In this document: in pieces, positions 3,478 through 34,926 of the stretch
Numbering within the stretch: position 1 is the first letter of the stretch
Layout of the letters: every line of letters starts with the position of its first letter
Assembly (NCBI GenBank): GCA_029941135.1
Contig: JAPYRI010000021.1
Location: forward strand, 1-36,660
Reading direction: 5' to 3'
Origin: Alphaproteobacteria bacterium
Lineage (GTDB): Bacteria > Pseudomonadota > Alphaproteobacteria > JAPYRI01
Length of the DNA stretch: 36,660 nt
Notes under the pieces: generated by a model
Seen by the model: the letters and a program-made list of their open reading frames with translations, nothing else
Database searches by the model: none
Told to the model about the DNA's origin: nothing
Program-made: the position numbers and the translations under genes

Positions 3478-3487
3478 GGAGCAGGTT

Positions 3488-5517: not shown

Positions 5518-5550
5518 CCTAACCCAGTCCACTCGTGTATCCATATACCC

Positions 5551-7691: not shown

Positions 7692-7812
7692 CGGTCAAAA
7701 ATGTGGACCTATCGCATGGTTGACTACCGACTTGACATCCCCGGGCGTTTAACTTCAAAAAGCCTCTGAAAAAGGGACGCGTCGTCGTCTATGGCGATAA
7801 CTGGGCGAATTG

Positions 7813-9759: not shown

Positions 9760-10446
9760 ATGAGACGGCTCGGCATCGTAACCGGACTTAAAAGTGAAGC
9801 CCAGTGCATAACCAATACTCCGGTGGCTGAAAACGCCGACACACGGGTTGCAGCGGCCGTCAGTGCGCGGGCGCTGGTGGAAGCGCGCGCCTTGGCCGCA
9901 CAGGGTTGCACGGCGCTGGTCAGTTTTGGCATTGCCGGAGGTCTGGATCCGCGCCTGAAAGTTGGGGCCCTTATTCTCGCCAATGAAGTGATCGCGCCAG
10001 ACGGAACCCGGTATCAAACCGATGCTCGTGCCCGTCGAGCCCTACACCAATCACTGGAGAAAGACCTTCAGATCTCACACGCCCCTATATTGGGGAGCAC
10101 GAAAGTAATTTTTTCGCCCCGCCGCAAAATCAACTTACATGTGGACTCTGGCGCCGCCGCCGTCGATATGGAGAGCCATGCTGTCGCCCAAGCGGCGGCG
10201 GAAGCAGGTATCCCCTTCCTTGTGGTGCGCGTCATATCTGACAATGCCTGCAGCCGGGTACCGCGTTCGGTAATTGGCGCCATGGCACCGGATGGAGGCC
10301 GACGCATTTGGCGCGTTATGCTCAATTTATTGATCCGGCCTTTTGATTTCCCAGGATTGCTTAGATTGCAGCGCGGCAGTGATGTCGCTCATAAACGTTT
10401 ACGCAGCATCGCTACGTCCGGTGGCGCTTTCCTCGGTTTCGGATAA
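9760..10446 (+). CDS. hpnG: Adenosylhopane nucleosidase/phosphorylase HpnG
   Basis: A nucleoside phosphorylase-fold protein (MTA/SAH nucleosidase-like) that removes adenine from adenosylhopane, giving ribosylhopane or its phosphate, the precursor of C35 bacteriohopanepolyols. Landmarks are MRRLGIVTGLKSEA at the N-terminus, FGIAGGLDPRLKVG, the purine/ribose site VDMESHAVAQAA and the late VVRVISDNA with its conserved Asp. At 228 aa it matches the family. The ATG starts right after the shc stop. Its last 48 bases overlap the 3' end of the convergent hpnH gene, whose product makes its substrate. Confidence 0.9.
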   Translation: MRRLGIVTGLKSEAQCITNTPVAENADTRVAAAVSARALVEARALAAQGCTALVSFGIAGGLDPRLKVGALILANEVIAPDGTRYQTDARARRALHQSLEKDLQISHAPILGSTKVIFSPRRKINLHVDSGAAAVDMESHAVAQAAAEAGIPFLVVRVISDNACSRVPRSVIGAMAPDGGRRIWRVMLNLLIRPFDFPGLLRLQRGSDVAHKRLRSIATSGGAFLGFG

Positions 10447-11541
10447 TCGCTTCACCAAGCCTTCGAAAACATATTCAGCCGGCCGCTGGTTTTCCAAAGA
10501 TATTTCAGGCGCCATCGGCGCTTTAGTATCGACGCCGAATAAGGCGACTTTTGCCGCCTTCAAGGGGTGCGCCAAAGTATCCGCAACAGCAGACGGTTCG
10601 AACCCACAATGGACCATGCAGTTAGCGCACTTTTCGTAATTGCCGACACCGTAGCTGTCCCAGTCGGTTGTCTCCATCAACTCGTTAAAAGACTCGGCAT
10701 ACCCTTCGCCGAGCAAATAACAAGGCCGTTGCCAGCCAAATACGTTGCGCGTGGGGTTACCCCACGGAGTGCAGTGATACTTCTGATTGCCAGCGAGAAA
10801 ATCGAGAAACAAGCTTGATTGGCTGAACTTCCACTTAGATTTACGGCTGGCTCCCATTTCAAATACATCGCGGAACAATTGCTTGGTTTTGCGGCGATTT
10901 AGGAAGTGGCCTTGATTTGGGGCGCGTTCGTAAGCATAGCCGGGTGAAACGGTTATGCCTTCGATCCTCAAGTCGTTGGTCACAAAATCGAAATATTCAG
11001 CAATTTCCACCGCCGTCATTTGATCGAACAGCGTGCAATTGACGTTGACCCGAAACCCCAGGTCGCGTGCTTTGCAGATGGCGGAAATCGCGCGCTTGAA
11101 CACTCCGTCCTGGCACACCGCCTCGTCGTGATGTTTTTCCAACCCATCCAGATGGACAGAAAATGTGAGATATGAGGAAGGCTTAAACAGATGAATACGT
11201 TTTTCCAGCAGCAAGGCATTGGTGCACAAATAGACAAACTTCTTACGCTCGACAATGCCCTCGACGATCTGCCGGATTTCCTTATGCAGCAGAGGCTCAC
11301 CACCAGGGATAGACACGATTGGCGCGCCACATTCATCGACCGCCTGCAGGCAATCTTCCGTCGACAGACGACGATTAAGAATGTCGTCCTCGTAGTCGAT
11401 TTTGCCGCAGCCGGCGCATGCAAGATTGCACCGAAACAATGGTTCCAGCATCAAAACCAAGGGGTAACGGTCGCGTCGAAGCACTTTTTGTTTTAAAACA
11501 TAGGCACCAACGCGCGCCTGCTGAATAAATGGAACCGCCAT
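10399..11541 (-). CDS. hpnH: Adenosylhopane synthase HpnH (radical SAM)
   Basis: A radical SAM enzyme that adds the adenosyl group to hopene (diploptene), producing adenosylhopane, the first step of side-chain extension. The iron-sulfur cluster motif CNLACAGC (C38, C42, C45) is complete. VSIPGGEPLLH is the GGE SAM-binding segment. A C-terminal cysteine cluster (YEKCANCMVHCGFEPSA) matches the SPASM-like ending of HpnH proteins. Length 380 aa is normal. An AGGTAGG ribosome site precedes the ATG. It follows ispH by 26 bases on the same strand, so the pair forms a minus-strand operon convergent with the shc-hpnG operon. Confidence 0.95.
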   Translation of the reverse strand: MAVPFIQQARVGAYVLKQKVLRRDRYPLVLMLEPLFRCNLACAGCGKIDYEDDILNRRLSTEDCLQAVDECGAPIVSIPGGEPLLHKEIRQIVEGIVERKKFVYLCTNALLLEKRIHLFKPSSYLTFSVHLDGLEKHHDEAVCQDGVFKRAISAICKARDLGFRVNVNCTLFDQMTAVEIAEYFDFVTNDLRIEGITVSPGYAYERAPNQGHFLNRRKTKQLFRDVFEMGASRKSKWKFSQSSLFLDFLAGNQKYHCTPWGNPTRNVFGWQRPCYLLGEGYAESFNELMETTDWDSYGVGNYEKCANCMVHCGFEPSAVADTLAHPLKAAKVALFGVDTKAPMAPEISLENQRPAEYVFEGLVKRLSETEESATGRSDAA

Positions 11542-12530: not shown

Positions 12531-12750
12531 ATTCGACGCCTTTCATCTCACCCTCGAGGAGCCCGACGGCTCCGAATTATGCAAATAACACACAATACTA
12601 GTCAGGTATTTGACTCTTCAGATATAAATCACTGTGCCCCATATTGGCAAAGAGTTATTGAAAAATAGCAGCACATCCGCAACAGATTAAGAACCCGGTA
12701 CTTGGATTTTTCGGGAATTGACGTTTTTTTGCAACAGGTTGGGATATTTA
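12531..12750. promoter_or_regulatory. Divergent intergenic region between ispH and hpnA
   Basis: This 220-base AT-rich gap separates two divergent genes and must hold promoters for both ispH-hpnH and hpnA. A TTGAAA at 12658-12663 could be a -35 element for hpnA, but no convincing -10 follows at the usual distance, so no exact site is called. No open reading frame or clear hairpin was seen. Confidence 0.5.
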
Positions 12751-13743
12751 ATGAAAGCATTGGTAACTGGGGCAACAGGATTTGTCGGCTCGGCCGTTGC
12801 GCGGCACTTGGTGCGTGCCGGACATCACGTCAAAGTACTCGCCCGTCCAGAAGGCAATCGCTCGAATTTGGCAGACCTGGATGTGGAAATATCTGAGGGA
12901 GACTTAAACGACATTGATTCCCTTGAGCATGCTTGCGCGCACTGCGATGCGTTGTTTCACGTCGCCGCTGATTATCGCTTGTGGACACGGCATCCGGCTG
13001 CGATGCGGGATACGAATGTTCAGGGCACACGGCGTTTGATGCGGGCGGCAATGGGCGCAAACATCCAAAGGATTGTATACACCAGTAGCGTGGCGACGTT
13101 AGGCATTTTACCCGGGACAGCAGTGTCTGACGAGGATACACCCGTCGCCTACGACCAGATGATAGGGGTTTATAAGCAGTCAAAGTTCATGGCTGAAGTC
13201 GAAGTCAGCAAAATGATCACCGAAGACGGTCTGCCTGCAATCATTGTCAATCCGTCAACTCCGGTTGGCTCCCATGATATAAAACCGACCCCGACCGGGC
13301 GCATGATCGTTGAAGCGGCTTCTGGAAAAATGCCGGCTTTCGTGGACACGGGCCTCAATATTGTTCACGTGGACGATGTTGCCGAAGGGCATTTATTGGC
13401 GTTTCAGCATGGCGAGATCGGCGCCCGCTATGTACTCGGTGGCGAAGACATGACGCTGCAGCAAATTTTAGCACAGATAGCCGAAATCACTGGCCGGACG
13501 GCGCCGAAGATACGCATCCCCCACAACGTCGTTTTACCCATTGCCTATATGGCCGAAGCGTGGACCCGTATGACCGGTGGCGAGGAGCCTTTTGTCACTG
13601 TGGATGGAGTACGTATGGCAAAGAAGAAGATGTACTTTTCGAGCGAGCGCGCCAAATCAATTCTTGGATATAATCCGCGCCTGCCGCGAGCCGCTTTCGA
13701 AGAAGCGATCACTTGGTTCGGAAATAATGGCTATATATGCTAG
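12751..13743 (+). CDS. hpnA: Hopanoid-associated sugar epimerase HpnA
   Basis: An extended short-chain dehydrogenase (NAD-dependent epimerase) of the HpnA type, common in hopanoid loci and thought to act on a sugar joined to or used for the side chain; its substrate is unproven. MKALVTGATGFVGSAVA is the NAD-binding Gly motif, YTSSVATLG follows the active-site Ser strand, and YKQSKFMAE supplies the catalytic Tyr and Lys. The ATG at 12751 gives 330 aa and starts directly at the family's N-terminus; upstream in-frame codons add an unrelated tail. It is convergent with the FPP synthase gene, 13 bases away. Confidence 0.9.
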   Translation: MKALVTGATGFVGSAVARHLVRAGHHVKVLARPEGNRSNLADLDVEISEGDLNDIDSLEHACAHCDALFHVAADYRLWTRHPAAMRDTNVQGTRRLMRAAMGANIQRIVYTSSVATLGILPGTAVSDEDTPVAYDQMIGVYKQSKFMAEVEVSKMITEDGLPAIIVNPSTPVGSHDIKPTPTGRMIVEAASGKMPAFVDTGLNIVHVDDVAEGHLLAFQHGEIGARYVLGGEDMTLQQILAQIAEITGRTAPKIRIPHNVVLPIAYMAEAWTRMTGGEEPFVTVDGVRMAKKKMYFSSERAKSILGYNPRLPRAAFEEAITWFGNNGYIC

Positions 13744-14769: not shown

Positions 14770-15510
14770 ATGAAAGCGATCATGCTGGCCGCGGGGCGCG
14801 GCAGCCGATTATCCGGTGATGACCCCGATCACCCGCCGAAATCACTTCTTCAGTTCGGGGGTCTCAGCTTACTTGAACGCCACATCCGAGTGCTACGCGC
14901 AACCGGCATTGAAGGTTTGACTTTGGTCGTCGGCTATCGGGCTGATGACATACGGGCTGAACTAACTCGCATTGGGGTCAACGATTTTGTCGTGACCATC
15001 TATAATCCGGATTTTCATGAAGGCACTGGAGTATCCCTCTGGTGCGCACGGCAGACACTGCTGTCGGGCAACCGTGTCTTATTTATGGACGCTGACGTTC
15101 TCTATCATCCCGAATTGATAGCGCGTCTTGTGGAGTCTCATAGCGATGATTGCTTATTGCTCGATCAAAACTTTGATCCGAGTGACGAACCCGTGCGGTT
15201 ATGCGTAAAGAACGATCGGGTCGTCGAATTTCGCAAAGCCGCGCTAGTGGACTGTGATCTGGTTGGCGAGTGGCCGGGTTTTTTGACCCTGGGGGCGAAG
15301 TCGGCACGTGCCGTTGCCGCCGCTTTAGAGCGCATGTTCGAAACCGGCAACCGAGATGCTCCGATGGAGGAAGCGATCCGTGAAGTTGCCATGGCAGCAC
15401 CTGCAAGCACTTTTAGCATTAAAGACATCACGGGCTTGCCGTGGACTGAAATTGATTTTCCTAGAGACTTGATACGTGCCGAAAACGAGATTTTGCCAAA
15501 ATTGCCTTAA
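14770..15510 (+). CDS. LicC/PntC-like nucleotidyltransferase
   Basis: A 246-aa GT-A-fold nucleotidyltransferase that couples a phosphorylated or phosphonylated alcohol/amine to an NTP. The N-terminal NTP-binding motif is MLAAGRGSRL with a downstream PPKSLLQFGG lysine. FMDADVLYHPEL carries the metal-binding Asp residues, and GVSLWCARQTL resembles the substrate loop of LicC-type cytidylyltransferases. A GAGG ribosome site lies about five bases before the ATG. Lying beside PEP mutase, phosphonopyruvate decarboxylase and PhnW homologues, it is a candidate for CTP activation of 2-aminoethylphosphonate (PntC role). Since PepM carries a second such domain, their roles may differ. An unrelated sugar substrate cannot be excluded. 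Confidence 0.8.
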   Translation: MKAIMLAAGRGSRLSGDDPDHPPKSLLQFGGLSLLERHIRVLRATGIEGLTLVVGYRADDIRAELTRIGVNDFVVTIYNPDFHEGTGVSLWCARQTLLSGNRVLFMDADVLYHPELIARLVESHSDDCLLLDQNFDPSDEPVRLCVKNDRVVEFRKAALVDCDLVGEWPGFLTLGAKSARAVAAALERMFETGNRDAPMEEAIREVAMAAPASTFSIKDITGLPWTEIDFPRDLIRAENEILPKLP

Positions 15511-15528
15511 GTCCCTCCGACGCGAAGA

Positions 15529-16293
15529 TCACACCCGAAAAACATACTTACGATTGGGGTCCCGGTCGATGTCAGGTGGGTAATTCTTATATTTATCGTC
15601 ATGATAACGGTCAAAATAGTTCCCTGCTGACGCCTTGTTATAGGTCGCAAAATATAAGCGCCGGATTGAGGTGCTTAGGTTTGGTTCCGAGTAGTGGGGG
15701 GTGTAGCTATCGAACAGCACCAGATCACCAGGTAAGGTCGGCGTCGGTTGAAAGTCCATTTCAGCCAAATCGTCGTCGGTGAGGGGCTCCCACTCGCGAT
15801 ACAAAACACGATTTTGTTTGCCAGGCACCACTTGCAAGCAGCCGTTTTCAAGATTGGCCTCGTCAATACACACCATAATCGTAATAAAATAAGGGGCGTA
15901 GTCTTCCCATCCCGCTTGGCTGTCCTGATGGGGTTTAAACCCGTCTCCCCCGGGCATTTTGAAATTAATTTTTTCTTTGAATAAGACCGCCTCCTCACCC
16001 AAAAGTTGCCCTGCTGGTCCCATCAATGCGTGCGCAAGATCCGCAAAACCACTGTGGAAGGGTGACATTTTCTCTATTCGGGAAACTAAGTCGGTTCCCT
16101 GATCAGTTTGGCTTTCCTCGTGAAACACCCACTGCCTGCCGGTTATTTCTGGTAATTCAGCAAGTTCAGTCGTCCACCCTTCAATGAGGGCCATATTCTC
16201 TGTTCCGAAACCCCCGGGTACGTGCAATAAAGCATCCCGGTTGAATTCTTCGATCTGGCTGTCCAACAGGACAGGTGTTGCTAATCTGTTCAT
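15529..16293 (-). CDS. PhyH-family Fe/2-oxoglutarate dioxygenase, PhnY*-like
   Basis: A non-haem iron dioxygenase of the phytanoyl-CoA hydroxylase family. The Fe ligands are H122 and D124 (KPHQDSQAG) and H200 (YTPHYSEPN), and R211 or R212 is the likely 2-oxoglutarate anchor. The C-terminus (FATYNKASAGNYFDRYHDDK, then a late FPPD-like YPPDIDRDP and YVFRV) resembles PhnY*, which hydroxylates 2-aminoethylphosphonate at C1. With phosphonate synthesis genes on both sides it is likely to tailor AEP to 1-hydroxy-AEP rather than degrade it, since no PhnZ homologue is present here. The ATG at 16293 gives 254 aa and begins with a PhyH-like start; a longer frame to 16542 would overlap pepM. It is convergent with the nucleotidyltransferase gene. 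Confidence 0.8.
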   Translation of the reverse strand: MNRLATPVLLDSQIEEFNRDALLHVPGGFGTENMALIEGWTTELAELPEITGRQWVFHEESQTDQGTDLVSRIEKMSPFHSGFADLAHALMGPAGQLLGEEAVLFKEKINFKMPGGDGFKPHQDSQAGWEDYAPYFITIMVCIDEANLENGCLQVVPGKQNRVLYREWEPLTDDDLAEMDFQPTPTLPGDLVLFDSYTPHYSEPNLSTSIRRLYFATYNKASAGNYFDRYHDDKYKNYPPDIDRDPNRKYVFRV

Positions 16294-16485
16294 AAATTGA
16301 CTTATACATTGTAATTCGAGAGGCAGAAGCGGCAAATCTATACATGGAGTCCGCTCGTCTTCAAGCATGGTCGAGGCGATTGAAACTAATCTGGCCTGGT
16401 TTACCGCCGAGCGGACATAAATGATACAAAATCTGGAAGACCCCCTGGCGAGAGAGGGTTTCCCCCATTCATTAGAAATGTAGGC
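16294..16485. promoter_or_regulatory. Divergent intergenic region between dioxygenase and pepM
   Basis: About 190 bases separate the divergent dioxygenase and pepM starts, so promoters for both should lie here. No clear -35/-10 pair or palindrome was recognised. If the dioxygenase starts further upstream (ATG at 16368), the region is shorter. Confidence 0.4.
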
Positions 16486-18168
16486 ATGAGTACAAAAAAT
16501 ATATTTTCCCGTCGCGCTACCGCGATATCGGACAACACCCAACAGCCCGCCAAACCAAGTAAGTCAGAGCGATTACGTGCACTTCTGACATCCCCTCAGC
16601 TTGAGTTTTTGATGGAGGCCCATGACGGCTTGTCCGCCAAGATCGTTGAGGAATCAGGCTTTAACGGCATTTGGGCCTCTGGCTTATCCATGTCTGCGGC
16701 CATGGGTGTGCGTGACAATAACGAAGCTTCGTGGACTCAAGTTCTCGAAGTGCTCGAGTTCATGTCGGATGCAACCGATATACCTATTCTAGTCGATGGT
16801 GACACCGGTTACGGCAATTTCAATAACATGCGACGGGTGGTCAGAAAGTTGTGCCAACGTGGCATCGCCGGCATCTGCATAGAAGATAAGCTGTTTCCCA
16901 AAACCAATTCGTTCATCGGCGAAAATCAACCGTTAGCCGATATGGATGAGTTCTGCGGCAAGATCAAAGCCGGCAAAGATTCTCAAACCGATCCTGACTT
17001 TAGCATCGTCGCCAGAGTTGAAGCGTTTATTTCCGGCTGGGGCTTGGAAGAAACCTTGCGCCGCGCCCATGCCTATCGGGAAGCGGGCGCGGACGCGGTT
17101 CTGATCCACTCGAAAATTCGCTCAGCGGATGAAATTATGGCCTTCATGGAGGCATGGAATAATGCCGGCCCGGTCGTCATCGTCCCGACAACCTATTATG
17201 CCACCCCAACCGAAGAATTTCGCCGGGCAGGTGTTTCTGCGGTTATTTGGGCCAATCATAATTTGCGTGCCTCAATTAGAGCCATGCGCGAAGTGTCCCG
17301 TCAGTTGCAGCGCGATGAATCTTTGGTCGACGTTGAGAAATTCGTCGTCAGCGTCCGTGATGTGTTCGAATTGGCGGGGAACGATGAACTCGCGGAAGCC
17401 GAACGCCGGTACTTGCCGACAACGCTGAGCGGGCCTCGAGCTGTCATCTTAGCCGCGTCGCGCGGCATTGAGCTCGGCACACTGACTGAGAATCGACCCA
17501 AGTGCATGATTGATGTTCGCGGGCAACCGTTGTTGCAAAGACTGGTTGCAACCTTCAACGAGGGCGGTATTCGGGACATCGTGGTGGTCCGGGGTTATCG
17601 CAAGAAAATGGTCAATCTGCCGTCGATTAAGACCGTGGACAATGACATTCACGCAACAACCGGAGAAGCTGCCACCCTCGCCTGCGCTAACGAACATTTG
17701 CAAGCCGAATGTATTGTGTCCTACGGCGACATATTGTTTCGTCTCCATATATTGGACCAATTGTTAGCAGCAAAAGGCGATATTGTTCTTGCCGTCGATG
17801 CGTTGTGGCAAGAACGGGGGAATGACAATGGGCGCGCCCGCGACTTGATTGCGTGCTCTTCACCATTCCGGTCCGGATACCATGACAACGGTCCGGTTTC
17901 CATGGTCGGTATCGGCCCGACCTTGCCGGAGGACAGTGCCGATGGCGAATGGATCGGCCTCATGAAATTAAGCGCCGACGGCGCCGAGGCCGTGCGTGCC
18001 GAATTGACATCCATGTCAGAGGATGGCTCCCTCGGCAGCGCCAGTTTAACCGCCCTCATGGATCGCTTACGGCTCAGGGGCCAAACCATTGGCGTCGTCT
18101 ACATTACCGGACGTTGGATGGACGTGGATGAAGTGGCCGACTTGGCCGAGGCGCAAAAGTTCTTGTGA
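16486..18168 (+). CDS. pepM: PEP mutase fused to a nucleotidyltransferase domain
   Basis: A two-domain, 560-aa protein. Residues about 25-305 are phosphoenolpyruvate mutase, which converts PEP to phosphonopyruvate and creates the C-P bond. The diagnostic motif [10 protein letters not shown] (E133-S142) and the metal-binding VDGDTGYG (D104) are intact. Residues about 313-560 form a nucleotidyltransferase domain with [20 protein letters not shown] and VSYGDILF; the usual AAGxGxRL reads AASRGIELG, a variant I associate with PepM-fused domains. Such fusions are known, and the domain is a candidate AEP cytidylyltransferase (PntC type). The stop overlaps the ppd start as GTGA, so the two are translationally coupled. 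Confidence 0.93.
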
Positions 18169-19304
18169 TCGCCGCAAACGACTTCCTCGAACCCGCCGCC
18201 GCTGCCGGGTTCGATTTTTACTCCGGCGTGCCCTGCTCATTTTTGACGCCGATCATCAATCAAGTTGTGGGCGCGAGCGGTCCTGACTACGTCGGCGCCG
18301 CGAGCGAAGGTGAAGCCGTGGCAATCGCGTCAGGTGCCTGGCTGGCCGGGCGTAACACTGTGGTCATGTGCCAAAACTCCGGCCTCGGTAATGCCGTCAA
18401 TCCGCTGACATCGCTCAATCATCCCTTCCGTATTCCGACTTTGTTGATTGTGACTTGGCGTGGCGGACCTGGCATAAGCGACGAGCCTCAGCACACGGTT
18501 ATGGGCGAAATAACACCAAAGTTGCTGGATCTGATGCAAATCCCCCACCGGGATTTTCCTCAAACAGTAGATGATGTGGCCGACGCTCTGGCTGAAGCTG
18601 AGGCCCGGATCAAAGTGACCGATTTACCATTCGCGCTCATCATGCATAAAGGCAGCGTGCGGGATGACGGTTTGGAAGTTCCAACTCCAGTGCGGCGCGC
18701 GCGCGGCACGGTCGATGATATGACCGAAGGGGGTAGCTTGCCGACACGTTTTCGCATTCTCGAACGGTTTCTCGGCCGCGTAGACGGCGACACGGCGGTG
18801 ATCGCAACAACGGGAAAATGCGGACGTGAGTTGTTTACCCTGGATGATCGGGAACAGCATCTCTACCAAGTCGGCTCCATGGGCGGGGCCTCTGCCATGG
18901 GATTAGGGCTCGCGGTGAATACGCTGCGCAAAGTCGTCGTTTTGGATGGCGACGGCGCCGCCTTGATGAAACTTGGCAACCTGGCAACCATTGGTCATTA
19001 CGCACCCGAAAACCTCGTTCACATTGTACTGGATAACGGGATTCACGATTCAACCGGCGGCCAGCCGACGGTCGCCCCCAACGTGGATTTTGCCGGCATG
19101 GCCGTAGCCGCTGGGTATCCTCGAAGCTATAGGGCAGACAGTGAAGAAGGCTTTGAGCGCGCCTTCGCGGCGACACTGGCGACGCCGGGCCCTCATTTCA
19201 TTCATCAGGAGATCGCACCTGGCTCTATGAACGGCCTTGGCCGCCCCACCGTGAAGCCAGACGAAGTGGCGCGCCGTTTTAAGCAGTTTGTAACCGGCGG
19301 CTAA
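18165..19304 (+). CDS. ppd: Phosphonopyruvate decarboxylase
   Basis: A ThDP-dependent enzyme that decarboxylates phosphonopyruvate to phosphonoacetaldehyde, pulling the unfavourable PepM reaction forward. The N-terminal half has [12 protein letters not shown] and [18 protein letters not shown], with the ThDP-activating Glu. The C-terminal half has [15 protein letters not shown] and a later [12 protein letters not shown], together the GDG...N metal/ThDP motif. Length 379 aa is standard. The GTG start at 18165 overlaps the pepM stop. Its own stop overlaps by 4 bp the stop of the convergent phnW-like gene, so the three-step AEP pathway is encoded as a contiguous block on two strands. Confidence 0.93.
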
Positions 19305-20431
19305 AGGGTAGCCTCAGGTGCGCCACTACTCACCTCCATCTCACCCATTACCGCGCGCACGGCATCTAACGCACGACGCATGTGACTTTCGTCGAGGGCG
19401 CCAATGCAGCCCATGCGAAAACTATTTGCCTGGGTGAGTTTGCCCGGATAGATAACGATCCCGCGATCCCGCAACAGGTTATAAAAACGGTCAAACACAA
19501 AGTTCGGATCAGAGGGCGTGAGAAAGGTGATGATAATGGGAGCTTGCAGGTTGGCCGACAGGTAAGGCTGGAAACCCATCTCGGTCATACCTTCGATCAA
19601 CACCGTGCAATTCCGCCGGTAGCGCGCCTCCCGCCCGGCAATGCCGCCTTCAGCTTCGTGTTGAGCCAACGCCGCATCCAGTGCCGCGATGACGTGAGTG
19701 GGGGGCGTAAAACGCCATTGGCCATTGGCTTCCATGGCGCGCCATTGATCATGAAGATCAAAACACAAAACCGGCGCATTGCCTTCCGCCTGCTCTAGTG
19801 CCTGCTCGCGAATAATGGCAAACGACATGCCCGGCACACCTTCCAGACACTTGTTCGCCGACGCCACAATTGCGTCCGCAGGACTGTCGGCCAAACTGAA
19901 AGGGAGAGCTCCGAAGGCGCTCATAGAGTCGATTATCAACGCTCGGTCGTGTGCGGCGACCGTTTGGGCGAGCTCTCGAATGGGGTTCAAAATACCGGAC
20001 GTCGTCTCGCAGTGAACCGCAATCACATGGGTTATGCCGGTGTCGGCGTTCAGTACACGCGCCACATCTTCGGGCACGGGCGGCTCATCTTCGGGCATTT
20101 CAAGTGTCACGTAAGCGCGCCCCATGATGTCGCACATGCGGGTAATCCGCGTACCGTAAGCCCCATTAATCAGCACCAGGGCTTTGCCGTCGCGGGGCAA
20201 AAGAGTGCCGATTGTCGCTTCAACCGCAAATGTGCCACTGCCCTGGACCGGCACACAAACATGAGTGCCCTCGCCTCCCGCCAGCGCCACCAGCCGCCGG
20301 CGGATGCGGGCGTTCATCGCAATAAAATCTTCGTCGCGCGAACCCCAATCCCGCAGCATTGCTTCGCGAGTTGGTCGGGAGGTGGTAAGCGGCCCCGGAG
20401 TTAGCAATATCGGCGGTTCAGACTTGGTCAT
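19301..20431 (-). CDS. phnW: 2-aminoethylphosphonate aminotransferase (PhnW-like)
   Basis: A class V PLP aminotransferase that interconverts phosphonoacetaldehyde and 2-aminoethylphosphonate. The N-terminus ILLTPGPLTTSRPTREAML is characteristic of PhnW. The PLP Lys is K194 in ASANKCLEGVPG, preceded by the cofactor Asp in LIIDSMSAFG, and GSGTFAVEA is the phosphate loop. In degradative loci PhnW pairs with phosphonatase PhnX, which is absent here; beside pepM and ppd it should run in the biosynthetic direction. Length 376 aa is normal. It is divergent from the CDP-alcohol phosphotransferase-HpnN gene across an 83-base gap. Confidence 0.93.
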   Translation of the reverse strand: MTKSEPPILLTPGPLTTSRPTREAMLRDWGSRDEDFIAMNARIRRRLVALAGGEGTHVCVPVQGSGTFAVEATIGTLLPRDGKALVLINGAYGTRITRMCDIMGRAYVTLEMPEDEPPVPEDVARVLNADTGITHVIAVHCETTSGILNPIRELAQTVAAHDRALIIDSMSAFGALPFSLADSPADAIVASANKCLEGVPGMSFAIIREQALEQAEGNAPVLCFDLHDQWRAMEANGQWRFTPPTHVIAALDAALAQHEAEGGIAGREARYRRNCTVLIEGMTEMGFQPYLSANLQAPIIITFLTPSDPNFVFDRFYNLLRDRGIVIYPGKLTQANSFRMGCIGALDESHMRRALDAVRAVMGEMEVSSGAPEATL

Positions 20432-20514
20432 CGTATAATCCTCGGGTATGAGAGAGCCCAGATCAAGTTTTGTCGGCTTGCAATTGTGTATAAAGCATCG
20501 TTGCGAATAACCAC

Positions 20515-23500
20515 GTGCGTCTCTGGAGATCGATCATTAGCCACAATACCTATATTCACCGACTTGTCCGGATTGGCGTACGACGCCTGGTCAACACACC
20601 TGTCACCCCCAATCAGATTACCGGGGTACGCTTGATGGGGGCAATTGGGGCCGCCGCGGCGTTCGCTGTTGGCGAGCCCCTGTGGTCGAATATCGGCGCT
20701 CTGGTGTTTATAATTTCCATGTTCCTTGATCGGGCTGACGGCGAATTGGCTCGCCTCTCCGGCAAAACCAGTGCCTGGGGCCACAAATTTGATTTGGTGT
20801 CTGACAGCGCGGCCAATGCGCTCGCTTTTGTCGGCATTGGCATCGGACTGCGGGCCAGCGAGTTAGGGTATTGGGCGCTTATTCTGGGTTTCATTGCCGG
20901 TGCAGCGGTTGCGGCAGTGTTGTGGTTTGTGATGCGCCTTGAAAGCGAAGGCGGGGATCGTGCCGGTGAAATTGGCGGTTTCGCTGGGTTCGACCCCGAC
21001 GACGCCATGCTGCTCGTGCCCGTATTTGTGCTGTTGGGTTTTGCGCAACCATTGTTGGTCGCGGCAGCCATAGGTGCACCGGCATTTGCCGTGTTTTTTT
21101 ACATTCTATTTCGGCGGGCGCTTGCCCAGAAAAAAGAGCAATCTTTCACCGACGGCGCAAGTGCGACCTCCCGGGGGTGCCTCGCGAAGTGGGTGGATTC
21201 TGCCCGTCGGAACGCGATCCTGATCGTAATCCTCGCCGTCGTATCTGCCGTCGCCTGCGGCTGGTACACGGTGACGCGGGTTGGCATCAACACGGACACG
21301 GAAGGGATGCTGTCGTCCGAACTGCCCTTTCGTCAAAATTCGATACGCCTTAAACAAGCCTTTCCGCAACTGCAGGATCCCCTTTTGATCCTAATCGAGG
21401 GGCGCAACCCTGAACGCGTGCAATTTGGCGCCGATCAGCTCGTCGCAAAATTGCGTGCCTTACCCGACCTTTTCAGCAACATTTTTGATCCGGCAGGTGA
21501 GCCATTTTTCCGGAAAAATGGCTTACTGTACCTGGACGAAGACGCACTTTACGACTTGGGCGACCGGCTGGCAGACGCGCAACCCTTTCTCGGCACTCTT
21601 TGGCACAATCCAACGTTACCCAGTCTGTTTGATCTTCTGGGGCTGGCCATCGAACAAAGCGGGCAAGAAGGGGGCGCGCCGATTGATACCGCTGCTGCTC
21701 TCAACGCCATTGCCCAAGTGGCGAAAGCCCAGGCGCGTGACGATGCAGATACCTTGTCGTGGCGGAATCTGATGACCGGCAACGTGGCAACCGGCACTCC
21801 GGAACGTCGATTTATTGTCGTCCAGCCAGTTCTTAATTTTGCCAGTCTCGCCCCAGCCGCCGCCGCCATGGAGGAAGTGAGGCATCTGGCTGAAGAACTG
21901 GATTTGGTCCCTGAAAAAGGCGTGTCGGTGCGTCTCAGCGGAAGTGCTGCGCTTAACCATGAGGAACTTGAAAGTGTCCAAGAAGGTCTGGGCTTGGCAG
22001 GCCTGCTTACAGTGGTGATGGTGATTGGCTTGCTGATGACGGGATTACGATCAAAACGGCTGGTCGTCTCAACCCTAGTTACACTCTTCGCTGGGCTGTT
22101 GTGGACAGCTGCATTTGCAACCCTCGCCGTCGGACGCCTAAATTTGATATCGGTCGCTTTTGCTATTTTGTTTATTGGCCTAAGCGTCGATTTTGGTATC
22201 CATTTCAGTTTACGCTACCGCGAGGAACTGAACCGCCATCGCAACCACGCGGCCGCTTTGGCAGGTGCAGCCGAAGGAGTTGGCGGCGCTCTGGTCCTAT
22301 CAGCGGTGGCCGCGGCCATTGGCTTCTTCGCTTTTTTGCCCACTTCCTATGTGGGTTTAGCAGAACTTGGCTTAATTTCAGGCTTTGGCATGTTCATCGC
22401 ATTATTCGCAAATCTGACCCTAATGCCCGCCCTGCTCACGCTCCTGCCAATAAAACCTCAGGCATTCGACGATGTACAAACAGGGTTATTTAAAACTGTT
22501 GGATCCTTCCTCAGTCGCCGCCATCGCCTCGTCGTTATCGTAGCCGTCGTCATTGGGTTGGGCGCAGGGGTGATCGCGAGCCGGGCGCGTTTCGATTTCG
22601 ACCCCCTCAATTTGAAAGACCCGAACAGTGAAAGCATGGAGGTGCTGCGAGACATTTCAGACAGTCCGCGTACGGGGCCTTACGCAATTACCGTCTTGGC
22701 ACCCGACTTAGGCAAAGCCGACGATATTGCCGCCCAGGCGCGGGCGCTGTCGTCGGTCGAAGGCGCGGCAACGTTCTCGGACTTTGTGCCGACCAATCAA
22801 GAAGAGAAACTGGACATTATTCTGTCGACCGCTCTGTTTCTCGAACCCGCATTTACCGGGAAGTTCTCCACTGTCGCGGCAGTTCGTGGGGAACGCAGGC
22901 GGGCTGCTGCTAATCTGGGCAGGAAATTGGTCGCATTTGAAAGTCGTAAAGACCTTAGTTTGGCCAATCGGGCGGCAGCCCATGAATTGCGGTCAGCCCT
23001 TGAAGTCTTGACCGCTTCTAATGAAAGAAATAGCGAAACCCAATTGACCGAACTTGAGCGACGCCTCCTTTGGTCACTTACCCGGGAAATAGCTCTTTTG
23101 AGAACTTCCCTGACTGCGGATCTGGTGACAATCGATCATATTCCGGCCGTGGTAAGGGACCGGTATCTGACCCGTGACGGCCAGGCGCGGGTCGAAATAT
23201 ACCCCCGTGGCGATATGTCTGACGACGCCGCCTTGAGAAATTTGGTCGCTGATGTGCGCGGTATTGCGCCCAACGCCACCGGCGCCCCGGTAATTATTGT
23301 CGAAGCGGGAAACGCTGTGATGACAGCTTTCATTCAAGCGGCACTCGTGTCCGTGACGCTCATATCGATCCTGATTGCCGCACTTTTGAGGCGAGCACGC
23401 AGCGTGGTTTTGGTGTTCGCACCCTTGGCGCTGGCAGCCTTATTGACCATCGCCACATCGGTGGTTTTGAATTTACCCTTTAACTTCGCCAATGTGATCG

Positions 23501-23808
23501 TCCTGCCGCTGCTATTTGGTCTGGGGGTGGCAAGCGGCATACACTTGGTTATTCGCGAAGGCCAAACCGGCGGGGGCGCGACCGAAGTCCTGTCGACCTG
23601 CACCCCACGCGCGGTCTTGTTCAGTGCACTGACGACCATCGGGTCCTTCGGCAGTATGGCCCTCTCCGGTCACCCGGGGACAGCGAGCATGGGAATTTTG
23701 CTAACTATTGCGATAACGCTCACACTCGGGTGCACACTGGTGGTCCTGCCGGCATTGATGGCTGTGTTGCCAACCTCCGAGACATCGGTTGCGGCTTCGG
23801 TGGACTGA
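20515..23808 (+). CDS. hpnN: CDP-alcohol phosphotransferase-HpnN RND exporter fusion
   Basis: A 1097-aa two-part membrane protein. Residues about 1-215 are a CDP-alcohol phosphatidyltransferase domain with the full motif D72xxDGxxAR, then G89xxxD93xxxD97 (DRADGELAR ... GHKFDLVSD) and several helices. Residues about 225-1090 are a full-length HpnN, the RND/MMPL-type transporter needed to deliver hopanoids to the outer membrane. It has the two repeated halves, with IGLSVDFGIHFSLRYREE closing the first helix bundle and FGLGVASGIHLVIREG the second. The frame is open across the linker (RALAQKKEQSFTDGASATSR) with no stop or evident internal start. GTG at 20515 is the start. The transferase probably moves a CMP-activated head group, likely AEP or hydroxy-AEP, to a lipid hydroxyl; fusion suggests the exported hopanoid is the acceptor, which is inference. 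Confidence 0.9.
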   Translation: MRLWRSIISHNTYIHRLVRIGVRRLVNTPVTPNQITGVRLMGAIGAAAAFAVGEPLWSNIGALVFIISMFLDRADGELARLSGKTSAWGHKFDLVSDSAANALAFVGIGIGLRASELGYWALILGFIAGAAVAAVLWFVMRLESEGGDRAGEIGGFAGFDPDDAMLLVPVFVLLGFAQPLLVAAAIGAPAFAVFFYILFRRALAQKKEQSFTDGASATSRGCLAKWVDSARRNAILIVILAVVSAVACGWYTVTRVGINTDTEGMLSSELPFRQNSIRLKQAFPQLQDPLLILIEGRNPERVQFGADQLVAKLRALPDLFSNIFDPAGEPFFRKNGLLYLDEDALYDLGDRLADAQPFLGTLWHNPTLPSLFDLLGLAIEQSGQEGGAPIDTAAALNAIAQVAKAQARDDADTLSWRNLMTGNVATGTPERRFIVVQPVLNFASLAPAAAAMEEVRHLAEELDLVPEKGVSVRLSGSAALNHEELESVQEGLGLAGLLTVVMVIGLLMTGLRSKRLVVSTLVTLFAGLLWTAAFATLAVGRLNLISVAFAILFIGLSVDFGIHFSLRYREELNRHRNHAAALAGAAEGVGGALVLSAVAAAIGFFAFLPTSYVGLAELGLISGFGMFIALFANLTLMPALLTLLPIKPQAFDDVQTGLFKTVGSFLSRRHRLVVIVAVVIGLGAGVIASRARFDFDPLNLKDPNSESMEVLRDISDSPRTGPYAITVLAPDLGKADDIAAQARALSSVEGAATFSDFVPTNQEEKLDIILSTALFLEPAFTGKFSTVAAVRGERRRAAANLGRKLVAFESRKDLSLANRAAAHELRSALEVLTASNERNSETQLTELERRLLWSLTREIALLRTSLTADLVTIDHIPAVVRDRYLTRDGQARVEIYPRGDMSDDAALRNLVADVRGIAPNATGAPVIIVEAGNAVMTAFIQAALVSVTLISILIAALLRRARSVVLVFAPLALAALLTIATSVVLNLPFNFANVIVLPLLFGLGVASGIHLVIREGQTGGGATEVLSTCTPRAVLFSALTTIGSFGSMALSGHPGTASMGILLTIAITLTLGCTLVVLPALMAVLPTSETSVAASVD

Positions 23809-23809
23809 A

Positions 23810-24823
23810 ATGAAAGTTGTTAAATTTTTGTATGTTCTGTTGGGCGCAGCCCTGCTGATTGGCGTCGTTCTCCAAACCGACCTCGGCGAAGTATCAAACT
23901 ACTTACGCCAAATCGGGGGGGGCGCCGGCGCCATACTTGTTATTTATCTGGTCTATTTTTCTATTGATTCACTGACTTGGTTGATCGCACTCCAGCCTGC
24001 GCCCTTAAATGTCACTTGGTTCCAGCGGCTGTGGAAAGTACGGCTGGTAGGCGAAGCTTTTAACGCGGTTATTCCTGCAGGCGGCATGGGCGGCGAACCG
24101 GTAAAAGCGGTGCTGCTCAAAAAGCACTACGGCATCGATTACCGGGCCGCGATCGCATCGGTGATACTTGCCAAGACAGTCAATATGGGCGCGTTAATTG
24201 TATTTCTTGGCATTGGGTTCTTTCTAATGCTGAATTCTCCCCAATTGCCGGATACTTACAAAACCGTGGCTGGTCTCGGATTGGGCGGAGTATGCCTCGG
24301 CACGTTCTCGTTTTTCACAGTTCAACGGCTTAAACTTTCGTCACGCGTTGGCAAATTTGTGAGCCGGCGCGAGTTCGCCGCCTGGCTGGCTGATGTACTC
24401 CATCATGTGGAGGCTGTTGAAGATCGGTTTGTGGCTTTCTATACCCGCAACCGAGCCCGACTTGCCAGTGCCGCTGCGCTTGCCCTGCTCAACTGGATCA
24501 TTGGCGCGGTTGAGATATACGCGACCCTGTGGTTTCTGGGTCATCCGGTTTCCATATGGGATGCCTGGATGATCGAAGCAGCCGCGCAAATGGTGCGAGC
24601 GGCCACCTTTTTTATCCCCTCCAGTCTAGGCGCCCAGGAAGGTGCATTCCTGTTTATGGTGTCTGCGTTAACCGGATCACCGCCGTTGGGAATAGCCGTC
24701 GCAGTTATTCGCCGGTTCCGTGAACTGGTATGGATCGGATCAGGTTTTCTAATGGGAACCGTATATTCTCGAACCCCGAACGGCGCGCGGGCTGCAGTCG
24801 CTCAAGAAGAAAAAGATAGCTAG
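23810..24823 (+). CDS. hpnL: Hopanoid-associated membrane protein HpnL
   Basis: A 337-aa integral membrane protein of the lysylphosphatidylglycerol synthase transmembrane (UPF0104) family, HpnL subgroup. It has about seven or eight helices; NAVIPAGGMGGEPVKAVLL and FFIPSSLGAQEGAFLFM are the conserved family segments. Family members act as flippase-like lipid transporters or synthase membrane parts; the role of HpnL itself is unproven. The ATG at 23810 follows the hpnN stop by one base, so the two are almost certainly cotranslated and may act together in lipid movement. Its stop overlaps by 4 bp the stop of convergent hpnM. Confidence 0.9.
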   Translation: MKVVKFLYVLLGAALLIGVVLQTDLGEVSNYLRQIGGGAGAILVIYLVYFSIDSLTWLIALQPAPLNVTWFQRLWKVRLVGEAFNAVIPAGGMGGEPVKAVLLKKHYGIDYRAAIASVILAKTVNMGALIVFLGIGFFLMLNSPQLPDTYKTVAGLGLGGVCLGTFSFFTVQRLKLSSRVGKFVSRREFAAWLADVLHHVEAVEDRFVAFYTRNRARLASAAALALLNWIIGAVEIYATLWFLGHPVSIWDAWMIEAAAQMVRAATFFIPSSLGAQEGAFLFMVSALTGSPPLGIAVAVIRRFRELVWIGSGFLMGTVYSRTPNGARAAVAQEEKDS

Positions 24824-25497
24824 CCAGCCGGCCCAACCAGCCGATCGGCCTTTTTGTTGAGCGCCCCAATGAGACCCCGAACCCCACTTGCCCTCAGGAT
24901 TGAACGGTACTCGGATCGGCGCACGGCCAGTTCGCTTATGCCGCCGGCAAGCAACACGTCGATAATGCGCCAACCGTCGTCGGCCGATTTCATAACATAA
25001 GTCAATGCGATGGGACCATCGCCACCGCCAACAATCTGGGTGTCGACCAAAGTCGTTCCTCGCGGTCCTCCTTTTTCGCCTAGGATGTCAAATCCCTGTC
25101 CTGAGTAGCCATTAAATCGAACCGCATAGGTTCCAATGCTGACCCTACTGAACGCCGTCACCAGCTCCTGCTTTTCCTGCTCTGTCGCCCGCCGCCAATA
25201 TCCGCCGCACGATATTCGCGTCATCGCCGTTAGGTCGTAGCTCGATGCTACCGGTCCAGCCAATTGCTCGTAGCGGCCATTAACATCTAGCGTATCGGCG
25301 CGCTTCATCGTTGTTAGTAGAACCTCGTGGAATGCCGAAACCACTTGCGTCGGCGACTGACCTGCCGCTGCATTTCCGTCACTCACCGAGAGAACAGCGA
25401 AAAGCACCCCAAGCGCCGCGAATCCCCGGATCAAATATCGCCTTTGCAAAAATTTTCTCCCAAACGATGTCGAATAACAGTGTTCTTCGGCTATCAT
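24820..25497 (-). CDS. hpnM: HpnM, MlaC-type periplasmic lipid carrier
   Basis: A 225-aa exported protein of the MlaC/Ttg2D family, HpnM subgroup. An N-terminal signal (RRYLIRGFAALGVLFAVLSV, with likely cleavage near GNAAAG) sends it to the periplasm, where MlaC-type proteins carry lipids between membranes. Conserved landmarks are LTAMTRISCGGYWRRATEQE and YVMKSADDGWRIIDVLLAGGIS. It is convergent with hpnL and divergent from mlaA, so a hopanoid or phospholipid shuttle between the inner-membrane HpnN/HpnL and the outer-membrane MlaA is a reasonable inference. A start a few codons downstream is possible, because the first 18 residues are unusual for a signal peptide. Confidence 0.88.
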   Translation of the reverse strand: MIAEEHCYSTSFGRKFLQRRYLIRGFAALGVLFAVLSVSDGNAAAGQSPTQVVSAFHEVLLTTMKRADTLDVNGRYEQLAGPVASSYDLTAMTRISCGGYWRRATEQEKQELVTAFSRVSIGTYAVRFNGYSGQGFDILGEKGGPRGTTLVDTQIVGGGDGPIALTYVMKSADDGWRIIDVLLAGGISELAVRRSEYRSILRASGVRGLIGALNKKADRLVGPAG

Positions 25498-25747: not shown

Positions 25748-26569
25748 ATGGGCAGTATGAATAATTCTAGTAACGTTTGGCGGCCCAGGGTCCTCAGTAT
25801 CCTGATGGCATTATTCCTTGCTTTGGGAAGTTTTGTAGTGGCTGCGGATTCAGCCAAAGCCCAGAACGATATCGATTATTCTCTGGATGACGATTTTGAG
25901 GATATTGCCGACGAGGGAAGCGATGACCCGTATGAGAGCTTTAATCGGGCGATGTTCACCTTCAATAATTTCTTTATGACTTATTTGCTGAAGCCATTGG
26001 CAACAGCCTACAATTATGCGCCCGAAATCACACGCGACGGCGTTCGCAATGCTCTTGATAATTTGGATTCACCCAACAACCTCGTAAATGACATGTTACA
26101 GGGCGAATTTATTCGGGCTATGCAAATTGCCGAACGCGCGGTAATCAACACAACAGTTGGCGTGGGCGGCATTATGGATGTCGCATCCGACTTAGGCATT
26201 CCGAAACACAGTGCTGACTTTGGTCAAACCCTGGCGATCTGGGGTGTCGGCGAAGGTCCCTATTTAGTGTTGCCATTTTTCGGCCCGACCAATCCTCGTG
26301 ATGCAATCGGTCTGGGTGTTGATTCGGTTGGCGATCCGCTTAATTTGTGGGCTCGAAATACCGACCGGGAAGCCATCGGATATGGCCGATTTGGCGCAAC
26401 CGCAATCGATTCATACTCCCGAGTCATGGATGATTTAGAGGTGATTGAAGAAACATCGATCGATTTCTATGCCGCGCTCCGCAGCCTATCGCGCCAGCAT
26501 CGCCGCCATCAGATCAAGTATGGCAAATATGAAGGCGGGCCGCCCGTGACGGATGCTGAGAAACCGTAA
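25748..26569 (+). CDS. mlaA: MlaA/VacJ family protein
   Basis: A 273-aa protein of the MlaA (VacJ) family, outer-membrane components that remove phospholipids from the outer leaflet and pass them to MlaC. The signature DPYESFNRAMFTFNNFF is near residues 58-75, followed by NLDSPNNLVNDMLQG and DFGQTLAIWGVGEGPYLVLP, all typical. The signal region (ILMALFLALGSFVVAADSAKA) has no lipobox Cys, unlike the E. coli lipoprotein. A GGAG lies just before the ATG at 25748; the ATG at 25757 is an alternative. It is divergent from hpnM, its likely MlaC-like partner. Confidence 0.9.
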   Translation: MGSMNNSSNVWRPRVLSILMALFLALGSFVVAADSAKAQNDIDYSLDDDFEDIADEGSDDPYESFNRAMFTFNNFFMTYLLKPLATAYNYAPEITRDGVRNALDNLDSPNNLVNDMLQGEFIRAMQIAERAVINTTVGVGGIMDVASDLGIPKHSADFGQTLAIWGVGEGPYLVLPFFGPTNPRDAIGLGVDSVGDPLNLWARNTDREAIGYGRFGATAIDSYSRVMDDLEVIEETSIDFYAALRSLSRQHRRHQIKYGKYEGGPPVTDAEKP

Positions 26570-27291: not shown

Positions 27292-28642
27292 TGCACTTAG
27301 TAAAGTATGGTCGCGACTATACCCGGCTGCGCTTTTTGGAAAGTTTGGGAAAAACGGCTTTGAGCGCCGGAATGCTGCCGCCATTATGGGAAGTGGTGGC
27401 AAAAGATGGCGACATTGGCCGCGCTTATCCGGATGAGGCGCTGTCGATTGAAGCGTACACAGGTGGTGCAATCCAGACCGGAAATGTGATCGACCCGGGT
27501 AACGTGGAAGCGGTACGCGATTTGATCGATCCCCTGATGTGCAAGCAAATTAATACGGATGGACGGATCATTCATATTGCCCCGACGACCACCGAACTGG
27601 ACCGTTTAAGCCCCCGCCCCTCTAACGAAGCGACACTCAAATACCGGGGACGATGCAAACTGGATGCAGATGGCAACGTGAGAGGGATCAATGGTGATCG
27701 CTGGCCGGGCGGAAACCCATTCCCGGATGGCGGTACGGCCCAGAAAATTGTTGCCGCCAACACGCTCTCATTGGGGGTGGCACGACGGTGCACTTTACCC
27801 AATGAAGGAATGGGAAATGGGCGCGGAAGGGGGCCCGAAGTATCACTACCAATATTTGTTTGCAGAGTATTTAGCCGCTGGCCGCACCGTGATGGAGTCC
27901 AATCCCAATCTGCCCGGCCATGACAATACGCTCAGGTTTGTTGCCACCCAATTCACCAGTCCACGCACTGTGCGCGCGACGTCATTGTTGTGTATTTGGC
28001 CCTACGACCAAACCCAGCACACGGATTTCGTTGGCAACATGCCGGCGTTTTGCCCCATTCGTACACGTCGATTGCCAACAACCCGCCGGTTCGAGCCGAT
28101 TGTCTGGGGATCGACATTGTTCCCAACCGACGTTTGGTTAACTGGTGATCCTTATTTGAAATGGGGAAACTTCAAGCTGCTCGTTAAACGGCCGTGGCTG
28201 GGAGCAGTGTCGAACCTCAATTGGTCGGGACAGCGTGACAACTGGGAGCATGGCCGGCACGGCGGCGCCAGCGGACAACGCTACTTCGACACCACATACG
28301 AGCTTGTTCCTGAGGTCTATGTGGTCGAGTTGGAGCCGGTGAAATATCACTGGGCTCGTTATGGCAAAAAACGCATATGGTTCAGGCCCACACTTTAGTG
28401 CCGCTGGCCATGATCGTGTACGACCGGCGCGGCCAGGAACTGAAGCACGTGGACTGGGCGACCCGTTCTGGTCATGGACACACATTCAGTCCCACGACGT
28501 CCAAGACGACCATCTCACAATCGCCCAACAAGTTGGCGAGGTGACCGGAGATGGCGTTCATCGGACGCGTGTCAACGATCCGGCCATTTATGATCTGTAT
28601 TGCTCGGTGAACGCATTGCACAGGTATGAACCGCCGCAATAA
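27292..28642 (+). pseudogene. Decayed DUF1329-like paralogue 1
   Basis: A broken copy of the DUF1329-like genes downstream. It starts MHLVKYGRDYTRLRFLESLG, parallel to the intact copies, but with RLR in place of their RR pair. The first frame holds to about 27770, where an extra base (around 27771, in CATTGGGGGTGG) moves the similarity (HDGALYPMKEW) to another frame. Near 28384 a missing base after WF ends that frame at a TAG, while LVPLAMIVYDRRGQELK continues in the next frame. Around 28440-28465 about 20 residues present in the paralogues are lost and the frame shifts again before GDPFWSWTHIQSHDVQDD. Three separate lesions argue for true decay rather than one sequencing error. Confidence 0.85.
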
Positions 28643-30377: not shown

Positions 30378-30658
30378 CTTAATCGCGTATTTCACTTCTT
30401 CCACTACAGTTGACGTCGCGTCACTTTAGGTTTCCAGGCAAACGAACATTTGATTGATTTTTGTGCCCGCTCAATGGTCCGAAAAGCCTTTGTTTCTACC
30501 ACAAAATAACCATATTCTCGATATATCAATTAGGTGCTTATTAAAAATAGAGCCTTGGCGCTTAGGCGCATTTTAAGAATACGGCCGTATTTTATTACCG
30601 CTTTCATACGGGTGCTCCGACCGACGCTATGCGGTCGATGGGCCAGGAGTATATTTCG
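30378..30658. other. Intergenic stretch before DUF1329-like paralogue 2
   Basis: About 280 bases without a convincing gene. It is AT-rich in its middle and should hold the promoter of the following DUF1329-like gene. An AGGAG ribosome site at 30645-30649 precedes that gene. Minus-strand open frames entering from 31216 are shadows of the downstream gene. No clear operator or terminator was seen. Confidence 0.5.
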
Positions 30659-33361: not shown

Positions 33362-33489
33362 TTTTGTTCCATTTATACTTGGTAAGAGCAACCCTTCTCA
33401 TGAAGAGAATTGTCTGGTCAAACGTATCAAGGACGATGCACTGAGATTTGAACGCACTGCGCGTACCGCCCGCCGGGAAAGCACACGCC

Positions 33490-34878: not shown

Positions 34879-34926
34879 AGTGGTCTAGACTGGGTGAACG
34901 GAAAATCTGAACGGAGATCACCAGCC

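Follow-up and report, generated by a model that had tools for sequence, protein, structure and literature searches.

A predicted pathway to a phosphonate-headed hopanoid in the hopanoid locus of an alphaproteobacterial draft genome

Closest described systems

Hopanoids, the bacterial counterparts of cholesterol, are regarded as analogues of sterols, and few molecular fossils are in wider use. The present analysis concerns a phosphonate gene cluster at positions 14770-24823 of contig 21 (JAPYRI010000021.1) of an alphaproteobacterial draft genome (GCA_029941135.1; 3.02 Mb, 178 contigs); this contig, 36,660 nucleotides in length, was analysed as a whole and is referred to as the window. The cluster is embedded in a hopanoid (hpn) locus and, judged from its genes, it probably makes and exports a phosphonate-headed hopanoid, with transfer from CMP-2-aminoethylphosphonate (CMP-AEP) or CMP-1-hydroxy-AEP to a hopanoid alcohol and export of the product by HpnN.

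The cytidylyltransferase PntC and fusions of PepM to nucleotidyltransferases have been published (Rice et al. 2019, PMC6697681). The Pnt clusters described there resemble the window in combining a PepM that has a fused and a nearby MobA-like nucleotidyltransferase with Ppd, an AEP transaminase and activation as CMP-AEP, whereas their transferases are LicD-like or glycosyl transferases and the window has a CDP-alcohol phosphotransferase linked with hopanoid genes. A cluster from a lichen Nostoc was read as a phosphonolipid pathway and compared with a Burkholderia cluster (PMC5987646); it shares with the window a CDP-alcohol phosphatidyltransferase, a Fe(II)/2-oxoglutarate oxygenase, an NTP transferase, pepM, ppd, the AEP transaminase and hpnL. 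1-Hydroxy-AEP stands in the abbreviation list of that paper, from which the string 'hopan-' is absent. Three Nostoc transferases fell into the same clade (type A, see below) as the window domain; the Nostoc clusters lie away from shc, unlike that of the window, and the Nostoc genomes nonetheless encode a squalene-hopene cyclase (SHC). Regarding Roseomonas, a 2021 survey of Acetobacteraceae reported a linkage of shc to pepM and suggested a terpene-phosphonate yet to be discovered (PMC8776678); the accessible part of that report contains no transferase, mechanism, fusion or distribution, in contrast to the present analysis. Among structurally characterized proteins, the HpnN transporter (5khn, 6wu0) is homologous to the whole HpnN half of a fusion protein in the window, which adds an N-terminal CDP-alcohol phosphotransferase domain. 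Archaeal IPCT-DIPPS and AF2299 (4mnd, 4o6m) share both folds, nucleotidyltransferase and transferase, with the window and likewise unite them in one pathway; IPCT-DIPPS uses inositol phosphate, whereas the first nucleotidyltransferase of the window (NTP1) remained far under the cut-off of the bifunctional IPCT/DIPPS model NF041135 (71 vs. 580 bits).

No phosphonate-headed hopanoid, no term such as phosphonohopanoid and no further paper linking both topics was returned by the literature search. Phosphonolipid clusters (PMC5987646) and one terpene-phosphonate proposal (PMC8776678) predate the present analysis. The kind of pathway is already known; the predicted acceptor and the apparent fused synthase-transporter are what differs. 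New are the transferase-HpnN fusion, a transferase family whose co-occurrence with SHC extends over Alphaproteobacteria, Gammaproteobacteria and Cyanobacteria, the exchange with LicD and predicted masses ([M+H]+) of 654.4857 for bacteriohopanetetrol-AEP and 670.4806 for bacteriohopanetetrol-hydroxy-AEP.

Phosphonate genes and the transferase-HpnN fusion

The cluster has the order NTP1, PhyH (reverse strand), PepM fused to NTP2, Ppd, PhnW (reverse), CDP-alcohol phosphotransferase fused to HpnN, hpnL, hpnM (reverse) and mlaA. By family membership, a complete AEP route is encoded within the hopanoid locus. The original prediction of PepM, Ppd and a PhnW homologue was borne out by the cut-offs of TIGR02320, TIGR03297 and TIGR02326, and its gene set stood with one addition, a PhyH-type oxygenase that it had overlooked. 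PepM (residues 26-300) is fused to the MobA-like nucleotidyltransferase NTP2 (residues 317-560) in an open reading frame (ORF) at 16486-18168 on the forward strand; it scored 387.5 bits with TIGR02320 (cut-off 319.6), contains the PEP-mutase motif EDKxxxxxNS and matched the structure of Mytilus PepM (1m1b) with E=4e-129. The phosphonopyruvate decarboxylase Ppd (18165-19304, forward) scored 423.5 bits with TIGR03297 (cut-off 312.5). PhnW (AEPT), the 2-aminoethylphosphonate transaminase (19301-20431, reverse), scored 472.6 bits with TIGR02326 (cut-off 400.8) and 471.2 bits with TIGR03301 (cut-off 360.8). A catabolic role of PhnW was set aside, pepM, ppd and phnW being contiguous (no search was made for PhnX, PhnA or C-P lyase). 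Matches to PF13714 elsewhere in the genome (C54, C7) were rejected as PepM copies, at only 24-29% identity to PepM.

The oxygenase ORF (15529-16542, reverse; true start probably near 16293) is of the PhyH-type Fe(II)/2-oxoglutarate family (PF05721, 89.5 bits) and encodes a predicted AEP (phosphonate) hydroxylase, with HxD at residues 205-207 and a distal His. The best NCBIfam model was NF052437, methylphosphonate hydroxylase, at 131 bits, which is under its cut-off of 500 bits, so that the role is assigned by likeness. Since PhyH is conserved, adjoining NTP1 in many loci of relatives, the head group may be 1-hydroxy-AEP instead of AEP.

Two MobA-like NTP_transf_3 domains are present in the cluster (PF12804, 56.5 and 45.5 bits; cut-off 27), in line with the proposal that LicC/PntC-like domains activate AEP with CTP; the likeness to PntC was found for NTP1, whereas NTP2 is closest to LicC. 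NTP1 (14770-15510, forward), a PntC-like, predicted AEP cytidylyltransferase, had Tde-PntC as its best profile match in the PDB, over the full length (6pd1, E=1.8e-21), and its AlphaFold2 model (pLDDT 94.5) returned 6pd2 at rank 1 in Foldseek (TMq 0.84-0.87). Tde-PntC contacts the amine through E104 and E196 (PMC6697681). The aligned residues of NTP1, D107 and E200, are invariant in 24 orthologues; LicC, too, has Asp at both positions, and D107/E200 therefore cannot separate PntC from LicC. These residues point to a likely substrate of the aminoalkyl phosphate or phosphonate kind without deciding strictly between AEP and phosphocholine; AEP is favoured by the genomic context. NTP1 also resembles inositol-1-phosphate cytidylyltransferases. 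The best match of NTP2 was LicC (1jyk); YGD replaces DxD, the GD metal motif is kept and the equivalents of E104 and E196 could not be placed with certainty in the alignment. NTP1 is the better PntC candidate of the two. Elsewhere in the genome, a second NTP1-like gene and a further CDP-alcohol transferase ORF (462 residues) were seen (G000:C44:1400-2128 and 21351-21710), possibly an inositol-type pathway.

The CDP-alcohol phosphotransferase of the original prediction is present, not as a separate enzyme but as the in-frame N-terminal part (210 residues) of the HpnN ORF. The fusion ORF (20515-23808, forward, 1,097 residues) consists of the transferase domain, a predicted head-group transferase of type A (20515-21144, forward; CDP-OH domain at residues 31-167), and of the hopanoid RND (resistance-nodulation-division) transporter HpnN (21181-23763, forward; residues 223-1083). 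Between the domains no internal ATG was found, and GTG codons occur only twice, at residues 193 and 227. The transferase domain scored 44.0 bits with PF01066 (cut-off 22), matched the AF2299 structure 4o6m with E=5e-12 and carries the complete motif D(x2)DG(x2)AR(x8)G(x3)D(x3)D at residues 72-97 (DRADGELARLSGKTSAWGHKFDLVSD, 20728-20805). The HpnN half scored 959 bits with TIGR03480 (cut-off 752), whereas it stayed under the cut-off of the stricter equivalog model NF052374 (733.5 vs. 1100 bits). In the AlphaFold2 model of the full fusion the transferase domain was confident and the N-terminal half of HpnN was poor (mean pLDDT 66.6); Foldseek returned the HpnN structures 5khn, 5khs and 6wu0 as top matches, and also the CDP-alcohol phosphotransferases AF2299 and PIPS.

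Relatives have a stand-alone transferase gene, and the window thus shows a common layout in fused form. A small step could plausibly have led to it, because a type A transferase lies directly upstream of hpnN in L099, where the two are in frame with one stop between them, and in L101 and L176, where they are about 10 bases apart. A tree divides the transferases of these loci into three groups, A, B and C, and a locus carries up to three types. Type A has the complete motif and includes the window domain and the Nostoc, f197 and gammaproteobacterial sequences; the organism of the window has only type A at this locus. Type B has lost the last Asp of the motif in 19/19 members. It was also observed that type B (e.g., L048:16335-16973, L066:16245-16901, L103:16102-16713) keeps the fold motif and often stands beside type A, of which it is a possible pseudo-enzyme partner.

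Distribution, gene order and hopanoid flanks

The co-occurrence with SHC was determined in 288 genomes of Alphaproteobacteria of at least 85% completeness, in which the PepM type was called at E<1e-100 and the transferase profile at E<1e-40; matches at 38-45% identity to PepM were counted as other enzymes. SHC was present in all 30 genomes with PepM, compared with 76 of the 288 overall (Fisher, 2.7e-20), and in 17/17 families with PepM (about 1e-10). As the genomes are related, these p-values overstate independence, and counting by family gives the fairer figure. The transferase was found in 30 of the 288 genomes, 29 of which have SHC; the sole exception (G283) matches the genome of locus L115, which has other hopanoid genes. 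PepM and the transferase occur together in 27/30 genomes. A further set of 40 genomes, picked by means of NTP1, includes Nostoc and Gammaproteobacteria and consists mostly of genomes with a weak or absent hopanoid link. Both SHC and the transferase were present in 28 of these genomes, neither in 10, SHC only in one and the transferase only in one (p=1.4e-7). In a phylum-wide sample (339 genomes), 8/8 other genomes with the transferase have SHC. The transferase follows SHC more tightly than PepM does.

A mutual exclusion with the glucosamine head group of bacteriohopanetetrol was considered and rejected, the hopanoid glycosyltransferase gene hpnI being present in 11/30 PepM-positive and 14/46 PepM-negative genomes with SHC. 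As a separate observation, copies of the CDP-alcohol transferase lie within about 6 kb of hpnI in five genomes (G084:C37, G186:C69, G270:C300, G196:C1 and G277:C1), which was counted for a hopanoid as acceptor.

Of the candidates examined in a search of GTDB species genomes with an NTP1 alignment, 568 were confirmed as relatives, and the 80 best of these were retained. At least two hopanoid genes stand within 10 kb in 37 of these 80 loci (13/29 among the loci that carry PepM), so that the arrangement of phosphonate with hopanoid genes is not due to chance. Many Rhodospirillales (including L048, L066, L085, L065 and L074) share the order hpnC...shc-hpnG-hpnH-ispH-hpnA-NTP1-PhyH-PepM~NTP2-Ppd-PhnW-transferase(s)-HpnN-hpnL-hpnM-mlaA. 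The gammaproteobacterial loci L110 and L120 have another gene order, in which NTP1, PepM~NTP2, Ppd and PhnW are interleaved with HpnN, hpnA, hpnH, hpnB, hpnM and mlaA, and in L120 also with shc. The gene dxs (1-deoxy-D-xylulose 5-phosphate synthase) was seen to adjoin the AEP transaminase in gammaproteobacterial clusters (L110:14836-16722, L120:14771-16660 and L111:15311-17227), called by Pfam in L110 and L111 and by position and size only in L120.

In two NTP1-PepM clusters that lack SHC (L062, L075), a LicD-family phosphotransferase adjoins NTP1, and no related CDP-alcohol transferase was found in the two genomes. LicD-type enzymes act on glycans (Lic pathway). These loci fit a single module for the making and activation of AEP with two endings set by the acceptor, LicD or CDP-alcohol transferase. 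A sulfatase-superfamily enzyme adjoins LicD in both (L062:12117-13697, L075:12156-13721).

The hopanoid genes expected on both sides of the cluster were confirmed. To the left stand hpnC-hpnB-hpnD-hpnE-shc-hpnG-hpnH-ispH-hpnA and then a farnesyl diphosphate synthase gene, with hpnH, ispH and the latter on the reverse strand; to the right, hpnN-hpnL-hpnM-mlaA. The genes hpnC, hpnB, hpnD, hpnE, shc (7810-9759) and hpnG (3335-10446, forward), for the synthesis of hopene and the C35 side chain, all exceeded their NCBIfam cut-offs (TIGR03464, 276; TIGR03469, 543; TIGR03465, 325; TIGR03467, 390; TIGR01507, 762; and TIGR03468, 194 bits, respectively). The same holds for the radical SAM adenosyl-hopene transferase hpnH (10399-11541, reverse; TIGR03470, 545 bits, cut-off 225), the hopanoid-associated sugar epimerase hpnA (12718-13743, forward; TIGR03466, 485 bits, cut-off 368) and the MlaC-like periplasmic lipid carrier hpnM (24820-25497, reverse; TIGR03481, 184 bits, cut-off 160). 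The hpnL-like putative flippase (LPG_synthase_TM; 23789-24823, forward) scored 95.8 bits with PF03706 and, with TIGR03476, 158.9 bits, under the cut-off of 195.7; the mlaA-like outer-membrane lipoprotein (25748-26569, forward) scored 225 bits with PF04333. Downstream of mlaA are four DUF1329 (PF07044) ORFs (27691-28398, 30629-32047, 33448-34878 and 34894-36315), the first of which is apparently partial; three of the four have weak LolA-like matches.

Proposed pathway and rival explanations

In the proposed pathway, PepM would convert phosphoenolpyruvate to phosphonopyruvate, Ppd would decarboxylate the latter and PhnW would aminate the product to AEP, steps for which family membership is strong; PhyH, on weaker grounds, probably hydroxylates AEP to 1-hydroxy-AEP. 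NTP1 would form the CMP-phosphonate with CTP in the manner of PntC, as suggested by its fold and active-site residues, and the CDP-alcohol phosphotransferase domain would move the phosphonate from CMP to a hopanoid hydroxyl, as suggested by the phylogenetic profile and the fusion. The acceptor is most likely bacteriohopanetetrol or a precursor of it, because hpnH and hpnG are present. The attached HpnN half, together with HpnL, HpnM and MlaA, would take the product towards the outer membrane. The original prediction, in which AEP is made, activated with CTP and placed on a lipid, is thus supported as a prediction, enzyme by enzyme. It had named a hopanoid polyol or diacylglycerol as acceptor; the former is favoured because of the co-occurrence with SHC, the transferase-HpnN fusion and the adjacency of type A to hpnN, and the latter is less favoured.

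It is unlikely that the cluster makes an ordinary phosphonolipid, in which AEP or 1-hydroxy-AEP is carried by diacylglycerol and a shared destination in the outer membrane, or joint regulation, of the two lipids accounts for the position of the genes in the hopanoid locus. This acceptor is universal, so that a transferase tracking SHC (29/30, 28/29 and 8/8 in the three samples) is not predicted, nor is a fusion to a hopanoid transporter; however, the diacylglycerol users CPT1 and CEPT1 are among the structurally solved CDP-alcohol phosphotransferases, and for the related cluster of lichen Nostoc a phosphonolipid pathway had been proposed (PMC5987646). The separation of the phosphonate module from the hpn genes in Nostoc, G014 and f197 genomes also agrees with diacylglycerol. 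These unlinked cases are the only support for a chance or hitch-hiking presence of the phosphonate genes in the hopanoid locus, with no functional tie to it. That explanation is given almost no credence, as the same genes stand among hopanoid genes in varying order in Alpha- and Gammaproteobacteria, co-occur with SHC even where unlinked and include the transferase-HpnN fusion. It is also quite improbable that the head group placed on hopanoids by NTP1 and the transferase is another phospho compound (e.g., phosphoethanolamine or inositol phosphate), with the PepM genes supplying a distinct phosphonate product, e.g., a glycan. NTP1 scored best to PntC and has acidic residues at the amine-contact positions, and the transferase co-occurs with PepM in 27/30 genomes and stands with it in many loci; on the other side are the likeness of NTP1 to inositol-1-phosphate cytidylyltransferases, the presence of two nucleotidyltransferases and the absence of a close PepM from 8 of the 29 NTP1-picked genomes with SHC.

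The last of these counts, like the unlinked modules, weighs against a phosphonate-headed hopanoid; in some species the NTP1-transferase pair may therefore act with a different head group, or these metagenome-assembled genomes (MAGs) may have gaps. To the same side belong the presence of PepM and NTP1 without SHC in 5/40 NTP1-picked genomes, the finding of the fusion in one MAG only, and the existence of two nucleotidyltransferases and of as many as three transferase paralogues, for which the model does not account. Moreover, phosphonate goes unmentioned in the accessible part of a survey that covers 52 Alphaproteobacteria and 63 bacteriohopanepolyol structures (PMC12583986; carriage of the cluster by its strains was not checked).

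On balance, phosphonohopanoids may well be a new lipid class that numerous Rhodospirillales and further hopanoid producers make via a dedicated CDP-alcohol phosphotransferase family, with one polypeptide in the window that would both attach the head group and export the product. If this is true, widespread bacteria put carbon-phosphorus head groups on hopanoids, polar species that lipid surveys would miss, and the pathway would bear on unexplained bacterial surface phosphonates, on the phosphorus redox cycle and on hpn genes without a role.

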